DNA of 64,000 nt from Cladophialophora immunda (Eukaryota; Ascomycota; Eurotiomycetes; Chaetothyriales; Herpotrichiellaceae). Shown piece by piece: positions 8,762 to 19,581 of this stretch (positions are counted from its first letter, which is position 1; the number at the start of each line of letters is the position of its first letter). The notes under the pieces are model-generated. The model was not told the origin of the DNA, did not search any database, and saw only the letters and a program-made list of their open reading frames with translations. The position numbers were made by a program, and so were the translations under genes. The stretch covers positions 620,001-684,000 of the forward strand of contig NW_015622545.1 in assembly GCF_000835495.1 (NCBI RefSeq), in the 5' to 3' direction.

Positions 8762-9546
8762 TCAGGCAGTCTGACAGGGCCCGGAAGAGACCTCCTTGGC
8801 TGCAATGTCACACTGCACCGCAACACTTCCACAATTTCCGTCGACAATGCCCGATATTGCTGATGCCTCGGCCTCGGCGATCGCTTCCAGCCGGAGGAAC
8901 TCCAGTTCCGTCCAATTGAAGATATTGTCGTTCTCAAAGACCTGCCGTCCGAAAAAATTGCTGGAGAGTTTTTGCAGGTAGCGATAATCAGGCTGGTGTC
9001 TCTCTTTCGAGCCGTGCACATACCTCATATACTTTGCGAACTCGGCAGGGAGGCCTGCGCAGAGTTCCTCAGCACTGGTCGTTTCCATCAGAAGCAAGAT
9101 ACGCAGGGTCAGGTGGTCGCCCTCCCTTACGCCTTGGGTTCGGATATGTTGCCAGGAGAGTTTCCCCTTTGCAAAATCCACCAACATGTAGCCCAAGGCC
9201 TCTAGTTCATCGCATGCAGATTCTGCTGTCAACCATGTCAGATGGCCTGTGTCCACATGCACGTCCATGACCGAGACGCTTACAACCTCCTTAATGGACG
9301 TTGATACTCGCATATCTCAGGGTGCAAACCACATACGCGCGAGGAACTTTCAGGCTCTGAGGAGCAGGATCCGCACAGCCATCGGATCACGGGCGGTGGA
9401 GAAGCGTCAGACCGAAACCAGTGAGAGGAAGTTTCGGGGAGTGATGCCTGAATGCAGATAATGATGTGAATGGAGCGTTTCGAGTCGCGCAAGGAGGTGG
9501 TCTGCCAGCATCAACGTCGTCTTGAGAGATAATTGGCCGCCGCCAA
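8762..9546 (-). pseudogene. Casein-kinase-I-like pseudogene, C-terminal half
   Basis: Reading the minus strand from 9546, the frame gives GGGQLSLKTTLMLADHLL and continues to SHHYLHSGITPRNFL. This is the CK1 core following the GPSLEDL motif. The catalytic HRD is HSG (codons at 9454-9446), so the catalytic Asp is gone. The frame is then shifted and interrupted by stops around 9310-9420. Beyond that, the 8762-9313 frame matches the CK1 C-lobe: DELEALGYMLVDFAKGKL, then FAKYMRYVHG, then PDYRYLQKL and FNWTELEF. The 5' end of this half coincides exactly with the outer edge of the left terminal inverted repeat. The missing upstream half is found at 18846-19258 on the same strand. It is therefore one kinase gene, already decayed or decaying, split by an insertion. 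Confidence 0.8.
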
Positions 9547-9548
9547 TA

Positions 9549-9591
9549 CAGAACTTCCCGAAACGTACCTACCCCGGCGGACACATTGCAA
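9549..9591 (+). repeat. Left terminal inverted repeat
   Basis: 43 bases identical to the reverse complement of 18801-18843, preceded by TA at 9547-9548. Identity stops abruptly on both sides (9546 and 9592 differ from their partners). No other full copy is seen in the window. Confidence 0.9.
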
Positions 9592-9928
9592 CTTTCTGGA
9601 CAAAAGCCAAGGAAAGAATGGGTCACGCTTTACCTACGAGAGCATGGTCACATTTTTGTTCAGTTGGCGAATCATAGCTCGAACTTGTTCCTCACCGTAT
9701 TTGCGATACCGTAAAATCTGAGTGCTCTTTCTCGTGACATGACAATATGCTTACGGAACAACAATTGACTTTGAAGTGAAGGGTTGGTCACAGCTGCAAG
9801 ACGAATCACACTAGCCATGTTTTATAGCAGTGCAGTCGTGCGTTTCAAATCTGCTCAAGCCTTATACAGCATATGATAAAATCCGCGACGACGCTCATAC
9901 TCAACAATCACCTCTACCCTCTACCACA
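9592..9928. other. Left arm of the insertion
   Basis: Non-coding stretch between the left repeat and the 3' end of the NLR gene. A CGAATCA word about 120 bases in from the repeat has a counterpart at a similar distance in the right arm, which is weak evidence for subterminal motifs. Confidence 0.4.
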
Positions 9929-12900
9929 TCATTCGACCCATGCTCCTGGCATACGGTGAGCACTTTGGACCTCTTGATCTAAGCCAGTGTCACTGCCCGT
10001 GCTTAGCCATGCCACCAGAGTATTCGCTGCGCTTTGGGTGTCAGGGTGCGAAGGACCGAGTACCTTTCCCATTGTTTCCATGCAGGAAGTCATCAACTGT
10101 GTAGCTTCGTCATCGCGGTTTTGGTCTTTTAGCGTGTAGGCTAGGTTGGCCATGCTGGTCAGCGTGTCAGGATGCTCCGCCCCCAGCACCCTCGTCCTCG
10201 TCTCCATCACTTGCACCTCCAGCTCTTCCGCCTCCTTCCATCGACCTTGATTCCGGTACGTCGACGCCAGGTTAGCAATGCTGGTCAGCGTGTCGGGATG
10301 CTCCGCCCCCAGCACCCTCGTCCTCGTCTCTATCACTTGCACATCTAGCTCTTCCGCCTCCTTCCATCGACCTTGATCCCAAAACGTCAACGCTAGGTTA
10401 GCAATGCTAGTTAGCGTCGAGGGATGCTCCGCCCCTAGCACTCTCGTCCTCGTCTCCATCACTTGCACCTCCAGCTCTTCTGCCTCCTTCCATCGACCTT
10501 GATCCCAAAACGTCGACGCTAGGTTAGCAATGCTGGTTAGCGTCGAGGGATGCTCCGCCCCTAGCACCCTCGTCGAAGTCTCCATCACTTGCACCTCCAG
10601 CTCTTCCGCCTCCTTCCATCGACCTTGATNNNNNNNNNNNNNNNNNNNNNNNNNNNNNNNNNNNNNNNNNNNNNNNNNNNNNNNNNNNNNNNNNNNNNNN
10701 NNNNNNNNNNNNNNNNNNNNNNNNNNNNNAGCGTCGAGGGATGCTCCGCCCCTAGCACCCTCGTCGAAGTCTCCATCACTTGCACCTCCAGCTCTTCCGC
10801 CTCCTTCCATCGACCTTGATCCCAAAACGTCGACGCTAGGTTAGCCATGCTGGTCAGCGTCGAGGGATGCTCCGCCCCTAGCACCCTCGAACATATGTCT
10901 AACTCTTTAGCCTGTAGTTCTTCCGCCTCCTTCCATCGACCTTGATTCCAAAACGTTGACGCTAGGTTAGCCATGCTGGTCAGCGTCGAGGGATGCTCCG
11001 CCCCCAGCACCCTCGTCGAAGTCTCCATCACTTGCACCTCCAGCTCTTCCGCCTCCTTCCATCGACCTTGATTCCGGTACGTCGACGCCAGGTTGGCAAT
11101 GCTGGTCAGCGTCGAGGGATGCTCCGCTCCAACGACGTCCCTCTGTCTCTGAAAAGCCTGCTGAAAGTGCTTCTCTGCCGCACGGTGATCACCCTTCCAG
11201 TTCAATGCCTCGCCAAGGTTGTTGTAGGCCCGTAATGTCTCCTCATCGGACATTCCCAACTTGCTCTCCCTCCAGTGCACCACTGCCATTTGTGCCTCCA
11301 CAGCTTCACCGTACTTCCCATCGGCAAAGAGACACAGACCCATCTTTTCGAGAAGCCGGGACCGCTCAGGAAGATCTTCAATCACGTCATCTTCACAAAG
11401 TCTCTGAGCGTGCGGTAAATAAACCGTCCAAACATCTTTGGACTGATGGTCTCCGGAAGGGAATAGCTGGGCGAGTCGTGCAATACTGGCCCTCTTCCAA
11501 TCACCAAGCGTACCTTCCTTCCTGAGCCAATTTCGTGCAGCAAGATGAACCAGTCGATGCATGTCATACAATGCCTCATGGTTTGTCCCACCTTCGTTCC
11601 CCATCTGCTCCGTCACAAAGGAGTATCCCTTCAGCGTGGCAAGGGCATCCACAGCATCCTTCTTGGATCCGACTTCCGGCAGCAGAGACTTTGGAATACT
11701 TTTTTCACGAAGGCAAGCCATCGAGCTGAGAAACTGCGCAGCTAATGGATGATATTGGCGAATTTGATTGAACGAGACAAGCCAGGTGGTGGCGACCGGA
11801 TTATGGGCACTGGAATATCGAGATCGGTCGCCAAAATCCTCACTCAATAACCTGATCACTTCATCTTCAGGTTCATCCATGAGTTCCAGGTAAGTCTTCA
11901 AAGGCTCTTGAGTCATGTTCATATAAGAGGCAGCCTGGATTATGGCCAGCGGGAGATAGGTCAACCTGTCAAGCAAGATGGACGTTACGTTCTTGTCCGC
12001 AGCCATCTCAGGCTTCTCCAAGGCGTTCGTGAACATTGTTCTGGCTTCATCCAGTGACATCTCCAGCAATTCGGTCACCTCTCTTCCAGCGAGATGGCTA
12101 GCTACACGGCGTGATCGGGTGGTGATGATGATGGCGCCATTACTTGAGCTTGGCAACCACTCCACGAGTGTGGACTTCCCATCGGTGGGATCCAATCTCT
12201 TTACCCAGATCGCCTCATCATCAACGTTATCGAGGATCAAGAGCCATCGGCCCTCTGAAGAATGGGTGAGCCGTTCCTTAACTAGCGTTTTGACGTCTGC
12301 TTTGTCGTCTTCAATCCCCGGAATTCCAAGCTGCTTCCCGATCTCGAGCATATCCCTTTCAAATGTTAATCTATCTGTGGCTTCGATCCAGAAGTGTGAG
12401 TACTGTGGGTGTTCCGACCGGATTTGGTAGACTAGCTCTAACGCCAAGCGACTTTTGCCTACACCTCCTAAACCGAGTATAGATACGATTTGGCTGCGAC
12501 CGAATTCCTCAACCTTTTGTTTGAGATGTTGAAGCTGATATGTGCGGCCAACAAATTCTGATGTTTGGCTAAAAGGGATATGCCAGACCGGGCGAGCATC
12601 TCGGGCTCTGGGTACCTTGTTCGAGTCGACCTTACTCCCTGAGAGCTTATCGATCTCGCTTTGGAGCCGAATGAATGCGTTCTCCCCTTCACCGTACATT
12701 GGAGGCATGAACACGTTAAAAATCCCCAGGAGGCAGTACGCCTTGTCTTCCTTTCTTTTGGTGTTCCGTTTTGCTGTCCATCGCATCCGCTCCTCCACGC
12801 TGAACGTAAGCAAAGGGACGCCGCGGAGTGCCGTGAGGGGAATCTCGGTCGTCTTGTGGATCAACCGCTGCAGTGTATGCTTATCACCAAGCCATGCTCC

Positions 12901-13374
12901 TCCTCGGGCAAAGAACTCCACTGACTTAGGAGCAAGGAGTTCTTGAAGTGTCCAGCCCCGTGTGAACCACCGGCTCTTCCGAAACTCTGCTTCCCATATC
13001 TGCTCGGGCTGGCGGTTCTTGTCAACGACCCCTACCGAAACATCCGAGAGGTATACATAACACTTTTCGGCATCACGATACCAGGCATACATCGAGATGA
13101 TAGCCTCTGCGAGTTCGGCATGGTTAGCTTTGTCGATGCAGCATGTGTCCACCCAGAAGTATTCTAGTTTGTCTTTCCGAGCTTGCTCTCCACAGAACCG
13201 AATCTTTTCGTACCCAGCCTTCCTCTTGCCAGATCCATCTTTCAGATCGTTGAAGGTCACTTCTTCATCATCTGCTCCCCACGTATGGGAGAGGATCGCG
13301 TAGTGTGGAATGTCATCGATCAAGTCTTTGGTCAGGCTCAGCTGACCATCACCGTCGAATTTCAAAAGTCGCAT
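9929..13374 (-). CDS. HET-NB-ARC-TPR NLR-type receptor (gap inside)
   Basis: Fungal NOD-like receptor of the STAND class, probably a heterokaryon-incompatibility or innate-immunity type regulator. Residues 1-240 are a HET effector domain: AILSHTWG, then FWVDTCCIDK, then SRWFTRGWTLQELLAP. Residues about 275-520 are NB-ARC, with Walker A GLGGVGKS (301-308), Walker B LLILDNVDD (about 378-386), an IIITTRS sensor near 417 and a LPLAII motif. A helical linker leads to kinesin-light-chain-like TPRs from about residue 715, in 42-aa units such as HPSTLTSIANLASTY. A non-repeat tail ends at the stop at 9929. The ATG at 13374 starts right at the HET domain (MRLLKFDGDG). The frame is open except across the 100-N gap, where it shifts by one because the gap length is a placeholder. 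It is carried inside the 9.3-kb insertion and, unlike its neighbours there, shows no nonsense mutations. Confidence 0.9.
10130..11160. repeat. 126-bp tandem repeats encoding TPRs
   Basis: Near-identical 126-base units (42 codons) in the NLR gene. The word CGAGGGATGCTCC recurs at 10418 and 10544 and again at 10735, 10861, 10987 and 11113, always 126 bases apart on each side of the gap. At least eight units are visible. Most differences fall at the YRN/FWN/FWD position and a few neighbouring residues. The last unit towards the C-terminus is diverged. Such arrays change copy number easily, and short reads do not span them. Confidence 0.9.
10630..10729. other. Assembly gap (100 N)
   Basis: Exactly 100 N inside the 126-bp array, the usual placeholder for unknown length. 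Repeat units are in the same orientation on both sides, and the split kinase halves outside agree, so the join itself looks right. The number of TPRs is unknown. Confidence 0.95.
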
Positions 13375-14772
13375 CGCGTGAAACTCAGGTATCAGGATAC
13401 GTCGAAAGGCATCTGGTGTGCAGAGAGGAGCATCATCGAGCGCATTGCTGATGAATCCTTATTGCTTGTTGAGACGTGTATCCTGCCACGTAGAGTATAT
13501 GAGGTTCAGGAGGCTGTCGCGCGTATGGCGAAGTTCGATCAGGAGAGGGTCCCCGGCCGAGTGGTTGCCTGCTAGTTGGGTGGAAAGAGGACACTCGTGA
13601 GTCTGCCGCCGAGACACAGTAGGTAGTTCAAGCCATGGCCACAGGAACCCAATTGCATATGGGGAGAACACGTTGAAGAGTGTTCGATCAGGCTGAAGAG
13701 CTGCTTGGAGTAAATTTGCAGGCAGGCATCCGCTTCACTGAACGGGCGTTCCGATGGAACACGTGATTAAATTGTCGAGCAGAATGTGTGATTGAAGGGC
13801 CAGCGGAGGGAATTCTAGGCCTACCTCTGCCGTTGGCATTGCCACGTGAAGTACGCCATAACCCTCCACGCTCTCCCACACGGGCCACGCGGATCGTGGG
13901 GTTGTGTTGACTTCGCCGGCGATCCTTCGTAAAGCGGGGTTCAACCCGACGCAACGGGGCCCGTTAGCCGGATTGATCCGCGCCAGAGGTGCTCGAGCTT
14001 CCAGCCATGATTTTGGTAGGAAGATCGTGTGCCAGCCTCTTTGCAACATATTGACAGACCGAGCTCAAATCGCAGCAGAGAGACGTGGGTCCTGCCTGTT
14101 TGTGCGGCTCACGTGGGCTGCGAGCGAAAGTACTTGCCTCTCAGCGAGCGCTACGATATCCCGATATCGAACTGCCCGAGCGTCATCTCTGCGCAGCCTC
14201 GCTTTGCGTCTTGTCCTCGAGCTATCCTCTGCTTTGCGAAGGCGATCTTTGAAAGGTCTGATGAACCAGACAAGCTCGAGCAGAAGCGCTGCAACGAACG
14301 ATGAAGCTGTTCATGGACACCCAGATGCTCGGGTACTCTCACCGGCCGATACGGGATTTGATCAGAAAGATCTTGAATATTCGGCACCTATCCCAGAAAC
14401 CCCTCCTCACGCATGTCGTTGATAGATCTTGTGAGATTCATTGTGGAAGATAGAAGAGAAGGCTACAACGGAGGCAATGTTGATTGATTACGTGCTAGCA
14501 GTACAGTATGGCTGCGGTACTTTCTCCGATCCTAGGACTGCTGCACATTCCTCTCGTCGACATTCCTATATGAAGAATGACACTGGGTAGATAATTCTGT
14601 ACAAAATCTGTCCGCATGGTGTTGCACTGCCCAAAACCAATGTGGGATAAATGCTCGCTGGTGGCTAGGTGCGGGTATGATCGCCTGCGGAATGTTCGAG
14701 ATAATCCGCAGGACTCGCAACTTCCTCACAGTCAGAGCACGACTAACCTACTGCCCTGCACGCCAACCACAG
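13375..14772. other. Spacer inside the insertion
   Basis: Stretch between the NLR start (transcribed leftward) and the transposase start (transcribed rightward). It presumably holds the NLR promoter. Frames on both strands are short and Arg/Ser-rich with no motif. I found no second pair of inverted repeats that would bound a smaller Tc1 element around the transposase. Confidence 0.4.
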
Positions 14773-15769
14773 ATGGCGCCAAAACTCCCAGCCTCAACAC
14801 ACGCACGCATTCGGTGCATGATTGAGAATGGTAGCTTCACAAATCGTCAGATTGCGACGATGAAGGGGGTGAAGTGCAGCATCAACGCCGTCAAAGCCAT
14901 CAAGCGAAACCTTCGTGATTTCGGCAGCACCACGAGACCTGGCCGTGGCGGGCGACCGACCCTCACCGATCACCCCCTCAATGCGCGATGCTCTTTTTGC
15001 CCATCTCGATGAACATCCTGAGTTATACCTTGAAGAGATGGTAGAATGGCTGTGGGACGAATTTGGAGTGGCTGTCACTAAATCCACTGTTAGTAGGACA
15101 TTGCACTCTGCAGGGCGGTCGAAGAAGAAGTTTCGTCGTAAGGCCGCCGAGCAGAATCCCGACCTAGTCGACTACTACCTCCACAGTATTTCCTCCTTCC
15201 ACTCCTACCAGTTTGTGTACGTGGACGAATCTGGGTGCGACATAAGAGATGGGCTTAGGAGCAATGGGTGGTCTCCACGAGGTGTGACCCCTATTCAAAC
15301 TAGAAAGTTCCCCCGAGGATAGCGGTATCAAATTTTGCCGGCGTACTCCCAGGATAGCATTCTCCTTTTACGGGTGTACCGAGGCACTACCGACACCGCT
15401 GTGTTTAAGGACTTTATCGAACAGCTCCTTCACCACTGTGGAAGATTCCCCGAGCCGAAGTCAATCCTAGTTATGGACAATGCGTCATATCATCGTAGTG
15501 AGCGGATCACGCAAATGTGCGATGCGGCAGGAGTGAAGCTGTTTTATTTGCCTCCATACTCACCCCGGCTGAATCCCATTGAAGAGTTTTTTGCCGAATT
15601 AAAGGCGTCCATCAAGAAAAACTGGAAGGTGTACGAACAGAACCCTGGACCGGGCTTTAGGGTATTTCTCGAATGGTGTGTCGACGTGGTGGGAAGAAGG
15701 GAAGAGAGTGCCAAAGGCCATTTTAGGTACGCAGGATGGACCATTGAAGAGCCAGGAACATCTCTATAG
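14773..15769 (+). pseudogene. Tc1/mariner DD34E transposase, broken
   Basis: Transposase of the common fungal Tc1-like group. The ATG at 14773 opens an N-terminal helix-turn-helix part (SFTNRQIATMKG) and a GRGGRPTLT linker. The frame then shifts by one near 14965-14985, in a run of C, into LDEHPELYLEEMVEWLWDEFG. The catalytic triad is present: Asp in YVDESGCD, Asp in VMDNASYHR, and Glu in NPIEEFFAELK with 34 residues between the last two, so DD34E. An in-frame TAG at about 15320-15322 interrupts RG*RYQILPAYSQD; relatives have Gln there, so CAG became TAG. With a frameshift and a nonsense codon it cannot act in cis now. It lies roughly two thirds of the way into the TIR-bounded insertion and is the best candidate source of its mobility. 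Confidence 0.85.
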
Positions 15770-15875
15770 ATTCAGCACCGATATTCTAGAATGTAGGTCA
15801 TTCGCCAGTACCCCATTGAATCATTGGTGTTATACAGCCTAGATATCATGCATGCCACCAATCGAATCTGACCAG

Positions 15876-17275
15876 TCAACTTCCGTCGTCGCCTCCGTCC
15901 AGTCTCATACGTTTGTTGCCGTAATAAAAGTTTTCAATATCCTTACGGCGACAGAAATACCAAGCAACGCCCCCCGGCACACCTTTATGAATAAAGACAC
16001 TAGGATTTGGTTCTTCGTAGATGGATTCCAAAAAAAGACCCTCCTTCAACGCTACATCGTAAGCTTTTTCGAAGCCAGCTTTAACCAAAGGATCCCGGAC
16101 CCTCGATTGCTGCCAGGTGGCGTATTCTCGTAACGCATCATCGCGAAGCCCAGGAAATTCCAGTTGCTGGAGTCCTGCTGCGTCTGAATGATACCTAGAC
16201 GTCAACTGACCGTTCTCACCTTCGACATGTGACATGTGCTGAGGCTGGCTAGGCAATACGTTAGTGATGTTGATGGGCGCCATACGAGAACTAGACATCG
16301 ACGCCTGTTTCCCTCTGCGCTCGTGCTTCTGCCGGTCCGCAATCAATTTTCGCTGAAGCTCCAGGGGTATATCATTATACGTTGCCGGCATCCCGTGCGC
16401 GGCAATGTGCGCTTCGAATATGCGAAAGTATTCCTGTGTCATCTTGTGATGGTTCCCCTCCGAGTCTACCTAACAGTGTGGACCCAATTCGCACGACTTC
16501 GGACAGCGAAAGAATGCGTACATGTCAGGCTAAATGGGCCGCCGTCCTGACTCTTCTTGTTCTGTGGCGATATCTTAGTCTCGTTCCGCGAGTATACGAC
16601 TACTGGTTGATGTTCGTCCACGTTTGTCGACTCTTCTCGCCGACCGGCTGGCGGACTGCGAATTAGCTTCCATAAAGTTGAAGAAGAGGCTGACCTGAAG
16701 TCTCTTGCCCTTCTGGAAATATGGGCTCCAGTCGAGCAGTTATTTGTCTGCAATGGCCTAATCAATCTCGGTGCCGTCATATTCCCTCGTCAGGGCTGGT
16801 TGCGAACGCTCTGTGACGGAGACCACCACCTTCGTGTGCTCGTGCCGCAGTCGTCGGTTCCCAGGAAACCTTCGGCGCACCACTTGCTTGAACCGGCCTT
16901 GTAAGACCAATCGCTAGTAGTAGGCGAGAGAAACCACCACGTTGGGCTCAGATTGACTAGAGACCGCCTTGTTGTTCAATCTCACCTTCCACTCGATTAA
17001 ATAATGGAAACGGCCTCCGTCATATGTCTGGTGTGGATCCTAATCCTTCTCGTTTAAAAATGACGATTTCTCTTGATGTGAGGATAGATTCTGGCTGGGC
17101 GCGTGTGGGGTTCCGTTCGATCTGCCGCGAGAAACGACGGGTTCAGGAAGGGGTGAGGGTAAATCTCCCTCTTCAGAGGGCGTGACCGTGTCTGGCAATT
17201 GTGAAGGACCTTGTGAAGCATCCTGAGATGGGCATTGCAAATGAAATATTTGTCTAAATCAGGATACTCGGCCAT
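15876..17275 (-). pseudogene. Fungal dispersed-family gene with seven RIP-type stops
   Basis: One continuous minus-strand frame from about 17240 to 15876 reads as an unnamed family scattered through Pezizomycotina genomes. Its marks are GRFHYLIEWKVRLNN, then TKVVVSVTERSQ, a CELGPHC motif, INITNVLPSQ, and a C-terminal domain with FPGLRDDALREYATWQQ and FIHKGVPGGVAWYF. Seven stops interrupt it at 17040, 16914, 16758, 16740, 16575, 16530 and 16470 (lowest coordinate of each). Five are TAG and two TAA, none TGA. At several of them relatives have Trp or Gln, so TGG to TAG and CAA to TAA fit CpA-to-TpA change. Only the last 188 codons remain open. It ends 106 bases from the end of the transposase, tail to tail. 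The 5' end is unclear: MAEYPDLDKYF at about 17275 is in another frame. The family's function is unknown to me. Confidence 0.8.
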
Positions 17276-18800
17276 GGCGTCGGCGGACGCCTGGGCGGGT
17301 ACGGGTGGGATGAGTTGATGTCGAAGGGAGTCGAAGGTGTCCGGTCCCCAAGAGGTCTCCTGCGGTCAGCAAGTGAACACCTTCGCATCCTGAGCCCATC
17401 TCACACTAGTACCTCTCTTTTCACGCACAATAACTCTTGCCCATGCATCCAGACCAGCGTGTAAAACAGATATTTGTCATGTAAGCACTGTTACTCCCAG
17501 CATGCTAAAATCAATAGAACCAACGCCAGTCGCAGGACGTTTCTCCTGCCAGGGCTTGGTGTTCTATTTCTCTTGCCCCTCCCTCTTAACAACGCCGCAC
17601 ATCACCACAACGTCTGGCAGAGTGCATCTCGCATCTTCAACTAGCGTAGCTTCAATTGATATCATTTCACTCCATGTCTGATCATCTAACTCTTCTGACT
17701 AATTTTCAGTGGAAGGGTCGACGGAAAGTTATGCAACATCGCGGGCGCCTTGTGGCAATGGTAATGCCTCACGATGGAGGAGAATTAGGCTCGACCAGCT
17801 CCTCATATTCAAGTTTGGCTCGTTTGAACTCGAAGAAGTCGTAAGGTCGTCGAAGACAGCAACCTCAAATACTGAAGCGTGAAGGGGCCAGTGTCAACAG
17901 GCAACCAAGCTCAGGTGCACATGGATAGAGAACGCGTTCCGCACATTAGGAATAGCTCAAGTATGAAGGAATCAAATTTAAATGTCGAATGAACCGTATC
18001 TCGAATGTTAGTTCTAAACAAAATCTGCACCAGCTCGAGGAGGGTGCGCGCCCAGAAAAGTGTACGGCTGAAGCTGCCCCTAACCATTGCCGCGGATCAA
18101 CCCCGCCATTTCTGATGGTGGCGTGCATCAATCCACCTAACGACAGATCGTCGCCCTATCTTCCTTTCCCGCATCGCACGTAGCTGCAGGCACCAAGGTA
18201 GGGGTTATCTTAGCTTCGCAGCTCGTTAAGATAGGTGTGACTGGAACTGCGGCTCGGCAGACCGCCTGACATACTCGCAAGGCTGGCGCACGCAACTCAC
18301 GCCAAAATATGGAAAGCCTGACGAGCTGTGGTAGAATCGTCTCTCTTTTCCAGATATCGCGGGAGTTTATTTGGATACCGTTTCCAGGATGGAGAACAGC
18401 ATCATGGCTGGTTAGCTAGATTTTCGAGAGTAGATATTTAGTTCAATCCTCCTCAGCAGTATGGCCGTAAAGTGTGGTGGCGGCTTCATTCTGATATGGA
18501 CAATCAGCACTGTGCAGATCGAAGGGTCAAGGTCACCCTGGTCGAACAAAAGTTGAAGGTACTGCGCGATGTCCTTGATACCGTGGTTGAACTCAATTGC
18601 CCCTCTCATAGCTGTGGTAAATAGTGTACAGATTGGTAAAGTGCGCCCTTTCCGGTCTGACAAAATATGGAAATCTTACAAAGATCTGGTACAGATAAAA
18701 CGAGATTTTGCCAAGAATGTGTCCCGTCGTGATTCGTTGCTCTAATACAACATCTAGACAAAATCCAGGAAAGCGTCTTGGCTAGCGGAATCGGAAATAA
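17276..18800. other. Right arm of the insertion
   Basis: No supported gene. Short frames only, with local AT-rich patches near 17460-17720. The kinase-like frame crossing the right repeat becomes nonsense as soon as it enters this arm. Confidence 0.4.
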
Positions 18801-18843
18801 TTGCAATGTGTCCGCCGGGGTAGGTACGTTTCGGGAAGTTCTG
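18801..18843 (-). repeat. Right terminal inverted repeat
   Basis: 43 bases, the exact reverse complement of 9549-9591, followed by TA at 18844-18845 and then by the N-terminal kinase half. Confidence 0.9.
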
Positions 18844-18845
18844 TA

Positions 18846-19258
18846 ATATCGAAGCAAGTCTTCCAAGCTGGGTCCGAGAAGCTCAAGGAGGATCTTGAAC
18901 TCGTCCGGCTCGCCGTGCCAGTGTACGCGGGGAAAGCCAGGCTTACGGGCGAATTCTTGGTACACGCTGACCTCGTTCATGAGAAGCGGTGGCTGACATA
19001 CAATGCTCGATTATGATGGCGCTCTCTTTGCCCGTGTCAACACCACGCCCTGGAGAACTATCAGTGAGATAGGTCCATCAAGTTCCAGTTGAAGCACTCT
19101 ACCTTACCTAAATAGACCCCACCAAAACCGCCGACGCCCAGTTTCTGCGCCAACTGGTATTTGTCCCCTATCCGGATCTCTTGAATCCGCCTCACAAAAG
19201 GGTCGCTGCCGCTGCCGCTGCCGCTGCCGTTGCTCATTTCGTCGGTGGCCAGTGCCAT
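18846..19258 (-). pseudogene. Casein-kinase-I-like pseudogene, N-terminal half
   Basis: The frame starts with a Gly-Ser repeat (from GCTGCC units at about 19204-19231) and RIGDKYQLAQKLGVGGFGGVYLG, the CK1 glycine-rich loop. An intron follows (GTAAGG, ending CCAG near 19050). The next exon gives VDTGKESAIIIEHC, where the ATP-anchoring Lys of AIKLEHC is Ile. A 1-base frameshift then leads to NEVSVYQEFARKPGFPRVHWHGEPDEFKILLELLGPSLEDLLRY, written here as the CK1 segment up to GPSLEDLL. That segment stops at the TA beside the right terminal repeat. The continuation (QLSLKTTLML) is at 9546 on the same strand. Loss of the Lys, the HRD motif and the frame shows a pseudogene. The start at 19258 (MALATDEMSNG) is the most upstream plausible ATG in frame. 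Confidence 0.8.
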
Positions 19259-19581
19259 CTTCAACCACGCAGTTCCTCTTCGACCTGTTTTCCCTCGTTG
19301 CTTTCGCTGGATGTGTCACTCGTTGGGTGGTAGCTGGTTTGGTTCGAATCTGGCGGGGATCAACTTGCACCTTGAACCAGAGAATCTGGGTGCACAGGCA
19401 GATGATCCCCGGAGCATGCTCGGCTAGGTGACCCTGCCGCCTTCTGAGATTCACTGCTGAAGATTACCTTGACTCTCGCCTCTCTAAAGGAGTATGGCCG
19501 CCGGGTTCATAAGGAGAAGGGCCGGCTACCGGTTTGCAACCCTACACCCAACATTGAACATCCTGGAGGACAAGCTCAACA

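Follow-up and report, generated by a model that had tools for sequence, protein, structure and literature searches.

Positions 9549-18843 of the window (the whole 64,000-nucleotide stretch analysed here, from the black fungus Cladophialophora immunda, Herpotrichiellaceae, Chaetothyriales) hold a large Tc1/mariner-type insertion with an NLR gene inside it, and this element is one of a few related ones in which NLRs recur. We consider it probable that the segment arose by a single insertion of a large, NLR-carrying transposon of the Tc1/mariner kind into a casein-kinase-I-like (CK1-like) gene or pseudogene, and that the family to which it belongs repeatedly carries NLRs. The evidence consists of the ends and their TA flanks, a split host gene, the element's transposase and ORF2 (a transposase companion gene), and NLRs found between related ends at several loci (Table 1). 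C-numbers (C1, C2, C3 and so on) denote contigs of the same genome, and the window sits on C5.

Table 1. Features of the window, followed by the six TA-flanked TIR pairs read in the genome and what lies between them
Feature	Position	Strand	Evidence or content
3' half of casein-kinase-I-like pseudogene, in-frame stops	8762..9546	-	CK1 matches 99-136 and 190 to about 298-308
TA, target-site duplication, left copy	9547..9548	.	read in sequence
Left TIR, 43 bp	9549..9591	+	perfect complement of right arm
NLR gene, HET + NB-ARC + TPR repeats (cargo)	9929..13374	-	HET E 5.8e-12, NB-ARC E 1.2e-13, TPR_10 E 7.4e-52
100-N assembly gap in NLR TPR repeats	10631..10730	.	read in sequence
Tc1/mariner-type transposase, one frameshift and one stop	14773..15769	+	HTH_33 E 7.1e-11, DDE_3 E 3.2e-24
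ORF2, transposase companion gene, one frame, 7 stops	15879..17252	-	61% identity to C21 ORF2
Right TIR, 43 bp	18801..18843	-	perfect complement of left arm
TA, target-site duplication, right copy	18844..18845	.	read in sequence
5' half of casein-kinase-I-like pseudogene, two ORF pieces (19064-19315 and 18609-19010)	18609..19315	-	CK1 match of 18609-19010
Window element, 9,295 bp	9549-18843		HET-NB-ARC-TPR NLR, decayed transposase and ORF2
TIR pair, 8,155 bp, 100 N	C5:726959-735113		NPHP3_N/NACHT and WD40 ORFs on one strand, DUF6601 gene
TIR pair, 7,445 bp, 401 N	C2:4879094-4886538		PNP_UDP and TPR pieces, stop-ridden NB-ARC-like middle, ORF2 remnant
TIR pair, 9,923 bp, gap-free	C2:4494193-4504115		CHAT ORF and ankyrin ORF
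TIR pair, 3,728 bp	C3:363915-367642		no NLR; Zn2Cys6-like regulator (by eye)
TIR pair, 6,400 bp	C21:1352-7751		transposase, ORF2, 308-aa ORF without Pfam match; no NLR

Ends of the element and the split kinase gene

The segment measures 9,295 bp from TIR to TIR and has a TA at each side. A perfect 43-bp inverted repeat bordered by TA had been described from the sequence alone, and this was borne out: the two arms are complementary at 43/43 positions (45 bp counting the flanking TA), and inward of both arms the similarity falls off at once. The same reading had regarded the event as recent, for which we find no support, as both the kinase host and the mobility genes have decayed. Identity between TIRs gives no insertion date for a DNA transposon, since its two TIRs do not derive from one template upon insertion, and dating on this basis was dropped. 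No second insertion of the window unit was found in the genome.

Outside the ends lie the two halves of one CK1-like gene, collinear on a single strand as had been claimed. The minus-strand ORF at 18609-19010, which extends into the element, matches CK1 residues of about 45-95 (best E 1.7e-5). The match resumes directly left of the element with residues 99-136 of CK1-delta (most CK1-delta chains giving E about 5e-7), and 8765-9316 on the same strand aligns to CK1 from residue 190 to about 298-308 (best E 1.5e-20). The other piece of the 5' half, 19064-19315, had no Pfam match and was assigned to the kinase gene by position and by eye. A paralog at C6:2993905-2994177, with 63% identity to residues 6-97 of a 102-residue query built from both halves, crosses the junction in a single open frame, uninterrupted in both the protein match and the DNA alignment. 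When the window flanks are joined across one TA, the reading frames of the kinase halves differ by one nucleotide, and the junction has 4 extra nucleotides relative to this paralog. Because of this frame difference and the in-frame stops in the left half, the host gene is dead regardless of the insert.

The NLR gene inside the element

The gene nearest the left end has the plan of an NLR, with an N-terminal effector-type domain, a nucleotide-binding domain and C-terminal repeats, the assembly gap falling within the repeats. Its start codon was taken as the Met of MRLLKFD, and P0156-P0158 start alike. The sequence-only reading had called this HET-NB-ARC-TPR gene intact. The domains were confirmed, but we do not affirm its intactness, since the reading frame, open in the part that could be read, breaks at the 100-N gap and resumes in a different frame. 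The window NLR presumably serves as a receptor in incompatibility or defence. It shares its domain order and near-identical repeats with fungal NLRs (HET, PNP, NACHT or NB-ARC with TPR, WD40 or ankyrin), and the NLRs in C. immunda elements differ from fungal NLRs generally in sitting between transposon ends.

The gap raises the question of whether the assembly joined two separate loci through it. We consider this highly improbable. The TPR units flanking the gap are near-identical 42-residue repeats that match on both sides, and near-identical repeats often break assemblies. The side of the element with the transposase and ORF2 has no gap, and the same arrangement of TA and TIRs is seen in the pair C2:4494193-4504115, which has no gap.

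The window NLR shows 83% identity to Exophiala spinifera and 82% to Fonsecaea erecta, and horizontal transfer was not concluded from these identities alone. A second C. immunda record has, on an 82.6-kb contig, a partial NLR that is 99% identical, so the window NLR is not private to the sequenced strain. N gaps lie within or beside NLR repeats at four loci (C5:726959-735113, C2:4879094-4886538, L040 and the window).

A decayed transposase and its companion gene

The earlier reading overlooked the element's own transposase and ORF2, which converge on each other. A related element on C21, with related TA-flanked TIRs, has both genes open (355 aa for the transposase and 473 aa for ORF2). The C21 transposase has HTH_33 and DDE_3 domains, with D174, D258 and E293 at DD34E spacing (34 residues between the last two). 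Compared with these open copies, the window transposase is 80% identical over residues 80-350 and 70% over residues 26-87, and the window ORF2 is 61% identical across 458 residues. Since its own transposase and ORF2 are decayed, the window element could now be moved only by a related transposase.

We also considered RIP as the source of the decay, which was not shown. Between the window and C21 there is a mild excess of C:G to T:A changes in ORF2 (129 vs. 93 in the opposite direction, with no CpA preference) and little in the transposase (67 vs. 59, with a CpA preference that is slight at most).

A search of the genome with the transposase returned 13 matches at ten loci, the window among them. 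ORF2 also adjoins the transposase at two C6 loci, on C26 and on C18, and it was not detected near the copies on C24, C3, C16 and C7 in the stretches fetched. The TIR of the window lineage was not found in the stretches fetched around C6:2816250, C6:3040408, C26, C24, C3:1053075 and C16. In a collection of 5.8 billion proteins, ORF2 has 35 homologs, of which all organism-named ones are fungal, and the transposase has 828 matches. Among the matches listed, which for the transposase are the best 120 of the 828, relatives of the two genes come from contigs of equal length in two cases (5,392 and 287,071 bases), which suggests that they lie on the same contigs. ORF2 represents a protein family without a Pfam name, in which C257, C261, C267 and H275 are nearly invariant across 30 aligned sequences and possibly form a metal site.

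At C6:2808012-2820622, a transposase and ORF2 pair lies between two inverted NLR-type copies of about 2.7 kb that are 82% identical, with NB-ARC matches on both sides of the pair; no TIR of the window lineage was found there. At C3:1051204-1053613, a long open frame contains an NPHP3_N (NACHT-type) match, and a copy of the lineage transposase is about 1.4 kb away from this match. C7:1727832-1731393 is a TA-flanked element of another kind, 3,562 bp long, whose first 24 bp are identical at both ends (CAGTGGCGAG...) and which spans a distant transposase relative.

Related ends across the genome and what lies between them

In the genome, the first 21 bp of the window TIR are found unaltered only at the two ends of the window element. 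A genome-wide search for the 43-bp repeat, as suggested in the sequence-only reading, therefore gave the exact repeat here only, together with diverged relatives elsewhere. TIRs of the lineage begin with CAGNNNTTCCCGAAAC or a close variant. The sequence TACAGNNNTTCCCGAAAC occurs 13 times without mismatch in 42.2 Mb, where 0.08 would be expected (by arithmetic); ten of the 13 form five convergent pairs, and C21 adds a sixth. With up to two mismatches there are 97 matches vs. 170 for the reversed control, so that loose matches to TACAGNNNTTCCCGAAAC alone are uninformative. A longer end pattern at up to three mismatches gave 18 matches (5 in the control), a third pattern at up to two mismatches gave 14 (6 in the control), and a fourth at up to three gave 41 (47 in the control). 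Although TA belonged to the search pattern for the five non-window pairs, it precedes 13 of the 14 listed sites with CAGNNNTTCCCGAAAC intact. In length the six pairs range from 3.7 to 9.9 kb, and the agreement between their two ends over the first 43 positions is 43 in the window element, 40 in C3, 34 in C5:726959, 30 in C2:4879094, 23 in C2:4494193 and 22 in C21. For six single ends (C1:1085386, C1:4956122, C1:622742, C6:3141861, C6:2872493 and C15:954), no partner was found at up to two mismatches in 15 bases.

Three of the six pairs hold NLRs of differing architecture, one holds CHAT and ankyrin genes, and two are without an NLR. In C5:726959-735113, the N-terminal part, which by eye we take to be hydrolase-like from its motifs, had no Pfam match. 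The NLR of C2:4879094-4886538 is a decayed PNP-NB-ARC-TPR gene, the NB-ARC-like middle of which matches the window NLR (E 6e-5), and the ORF2 remnant beside it has 44% identity over 136 residues. C2:4494193-4504115 had no Pfam nucleotide-binding match, and the Zn2Cys6-like reading in C3:363915-367642 had no Pfam match in the pieces tested. Pairs about 9-10 kb apart with NLRs between them had been proposed as a check. Two more NLR pairs were found, with spans of 8,155 and 7,445 bp, and the pair of 9,923 bp has no nucleotide-binding match. Among the unpaired ends, C1:1085386 has an NPHP3_N match 2 kb inward, C1:4956122 has an NB-ARC match inward and an ORF, stopping about 0.5 kb from the end, whose repeats look TPR-like by eye, and C18:279 has a transposase and ORF2 inward. 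No transposase was detectable in the three other cargo pairs (the two on C2 and C5:726959-735113). As other types of NLR lie between related ends where no transposase was detected, the family appears to act repeatedly as an NLR carrier.

These contents bear on whether the NLR traveled with the element at all. An ordinary transposon of about 6 kb, made up of TIRs, transposase and ORF2, could have hit the kinase gene, with the NLR entering later and independently rather than as cargo. The C21 element has a transposase and ORF2 yet no NLR, and the window NLR sits to one side of the mobility genes, as such a history would have it. However, NLRs of other architectures occur at two other TIR pairs and inside two single ends, so the same accident would be needed several times, and we consider this history unlikely. 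We infer instead that the NLR was within the element before insertion and moved with these ends.

Counting NLRs between the ends

Genome searches gave at least 17 matches for NB-ARC and at least 111 for NPHP3_N, which merged at 3 kb into 115 loci. These were compared with 11 TIR units, made up of five pairs, three single ends with an exact match and three more at two mismatches, each single end being given a 9-kb inward span of our choosing. The count did not include C21 (which has no NLR), C18, C2:3845803, C3:1994599 or other weaker ends. NB-ARC or NPHP3_N occurs in 4 of the 11 units, where 0.25 would be expected (Poisson P 1.4e-4, from small numbers and a model that treats NLRs as randomly scattered). 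A stricter set gave 3/8 vs. 0.18 expected (P 8e-4), and the five pairs alone gave 2/5 vs. 0.1 expected (P 0.005). Without the window, which prompted the count, the figure is 3/10, with about 0.23 expected (by arithmetic). Both C2 pairs were scored as misses because their nucleotide-binding part yields no match. The outward flanks of 9 kb have an NLR match in 1 of 16.

Such an enrichment could reflect survival rather than capture or spread, if the insertion is old and immobile and NLRs were merely retained while useless insertions decayed away. This would fit the decayed transposase and ORF2 of the window, their absence or remnant state in the other NLR-bearing pairs, the uniqueness of the exact 43-bp TIR and the near-identical NLR of the second C. 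immunda record. Different NLR types at several loci would still require several acquisitions, and in C2:4879094-4886538 the TIRs are still there although the NLR has decayed. We therefore think survival a rather remote explanation. The preferred reading, insertion of a transposon with an NLR as cargo, has its own difficulties: the window transposase and ORF2 are broken, the C3 pair and C21 are without an NLR, six single ends are without a partner, and several transposase loci are without a TIR of the lineage.

If the NLR is cargo, the transposase would bind the ends and shift the intervening DNA into TA sites by cut-and-paste, presumably moving the whole unit, and this unit could include the NLR. 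Copies without a working transposase would rely on one supplied in trans, for which the open gene on C21 is a candidate. The NLR may persist through a role in nonself recognition or defence while the mobility genes decay. A bolder proposal, which we find doubtful, is that this two-gene Tc1/mariner-type lineage is a dedicated NLR carrier that repeatedly acquires NLRs with varied effector and repeat domains and disseminates them as mobile cassettes for immunity or incompatibility, perhaps because an NLR harmful to cells or competitors without the element favors the element's persistence.

Comparison with known mobile elements

The sequence-only reading had proposed one Tc1/mariner-type insertion at a TA site, which is supported here and strengthened by the internal transposase and ORF2, the related C21 element and the NLR-bearing relatives. 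The TA duplication, the TIRs and an HTH plus DDE transposase were all found, and fungal Tc1/mariner (IS630-Tc1-mariner) elements share the TIRs, the TA flanks, HTH with DDE_3, and the DD34E of the open C21 copy. According to PMC4188875, fungal Tc1/mariner elements are usually 1.3-2.4 kb with a single ORF. This usual but non-defining trait is not seen in the six pairs, as most members here are 6-10 kb with a second gene and cargo. By the same measure, the 9,295-bp window element is several-fold larger than normal Tc1, as had been claimed.

The element had also been called distinct from Starships, and this agrees with our search. Starships are far larger and are defined by a tyrosine-recombinase captain (DUF3435), whereas the window element has TIRs, TA and a DDE transposase. 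DUF3435 has four matches in the genome at two places, C5:1294616 and C3:377034-378279; no captain lies inside any of the six TIR pairs, and the match nearest the window element on the same contig is about 656 kb off. What the two have in common is that Starships are likewise fungal mobile elements bearing NLR genes, as stated in PMC9815663 and PMC12134995. Other fungal DNA transposons are also described, in PMC6737239, PMC12506042 and PMC12730594, as carrying a non-transposase gene (ToxhAT with ToxA, and carriers of TET/JBP), and these are other kinds of transposon with other cargo. The main text of PMC12730594 mentions neither NLR nor NACHT nor mariner, and in the literature available to us, mostly non-subscription, we found no account of a TIR/TA family that recurrently carries NLRs.

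Related elements with differing NLRs may be one way in which fungi scatter genes of the immune-receptor type. If so, a small cut-and-paste NLR carrier would be a concrete dispersal route for allorecognition and defence genes, separate from Starships, and also a route to presence/absence polymorphism and perhaps to horizontal spread. The DUF3435 gene of the Starship-captain type at C3:377034-378279 lies about 9.4 kb from the NLR-free pair C3:363915-367642.
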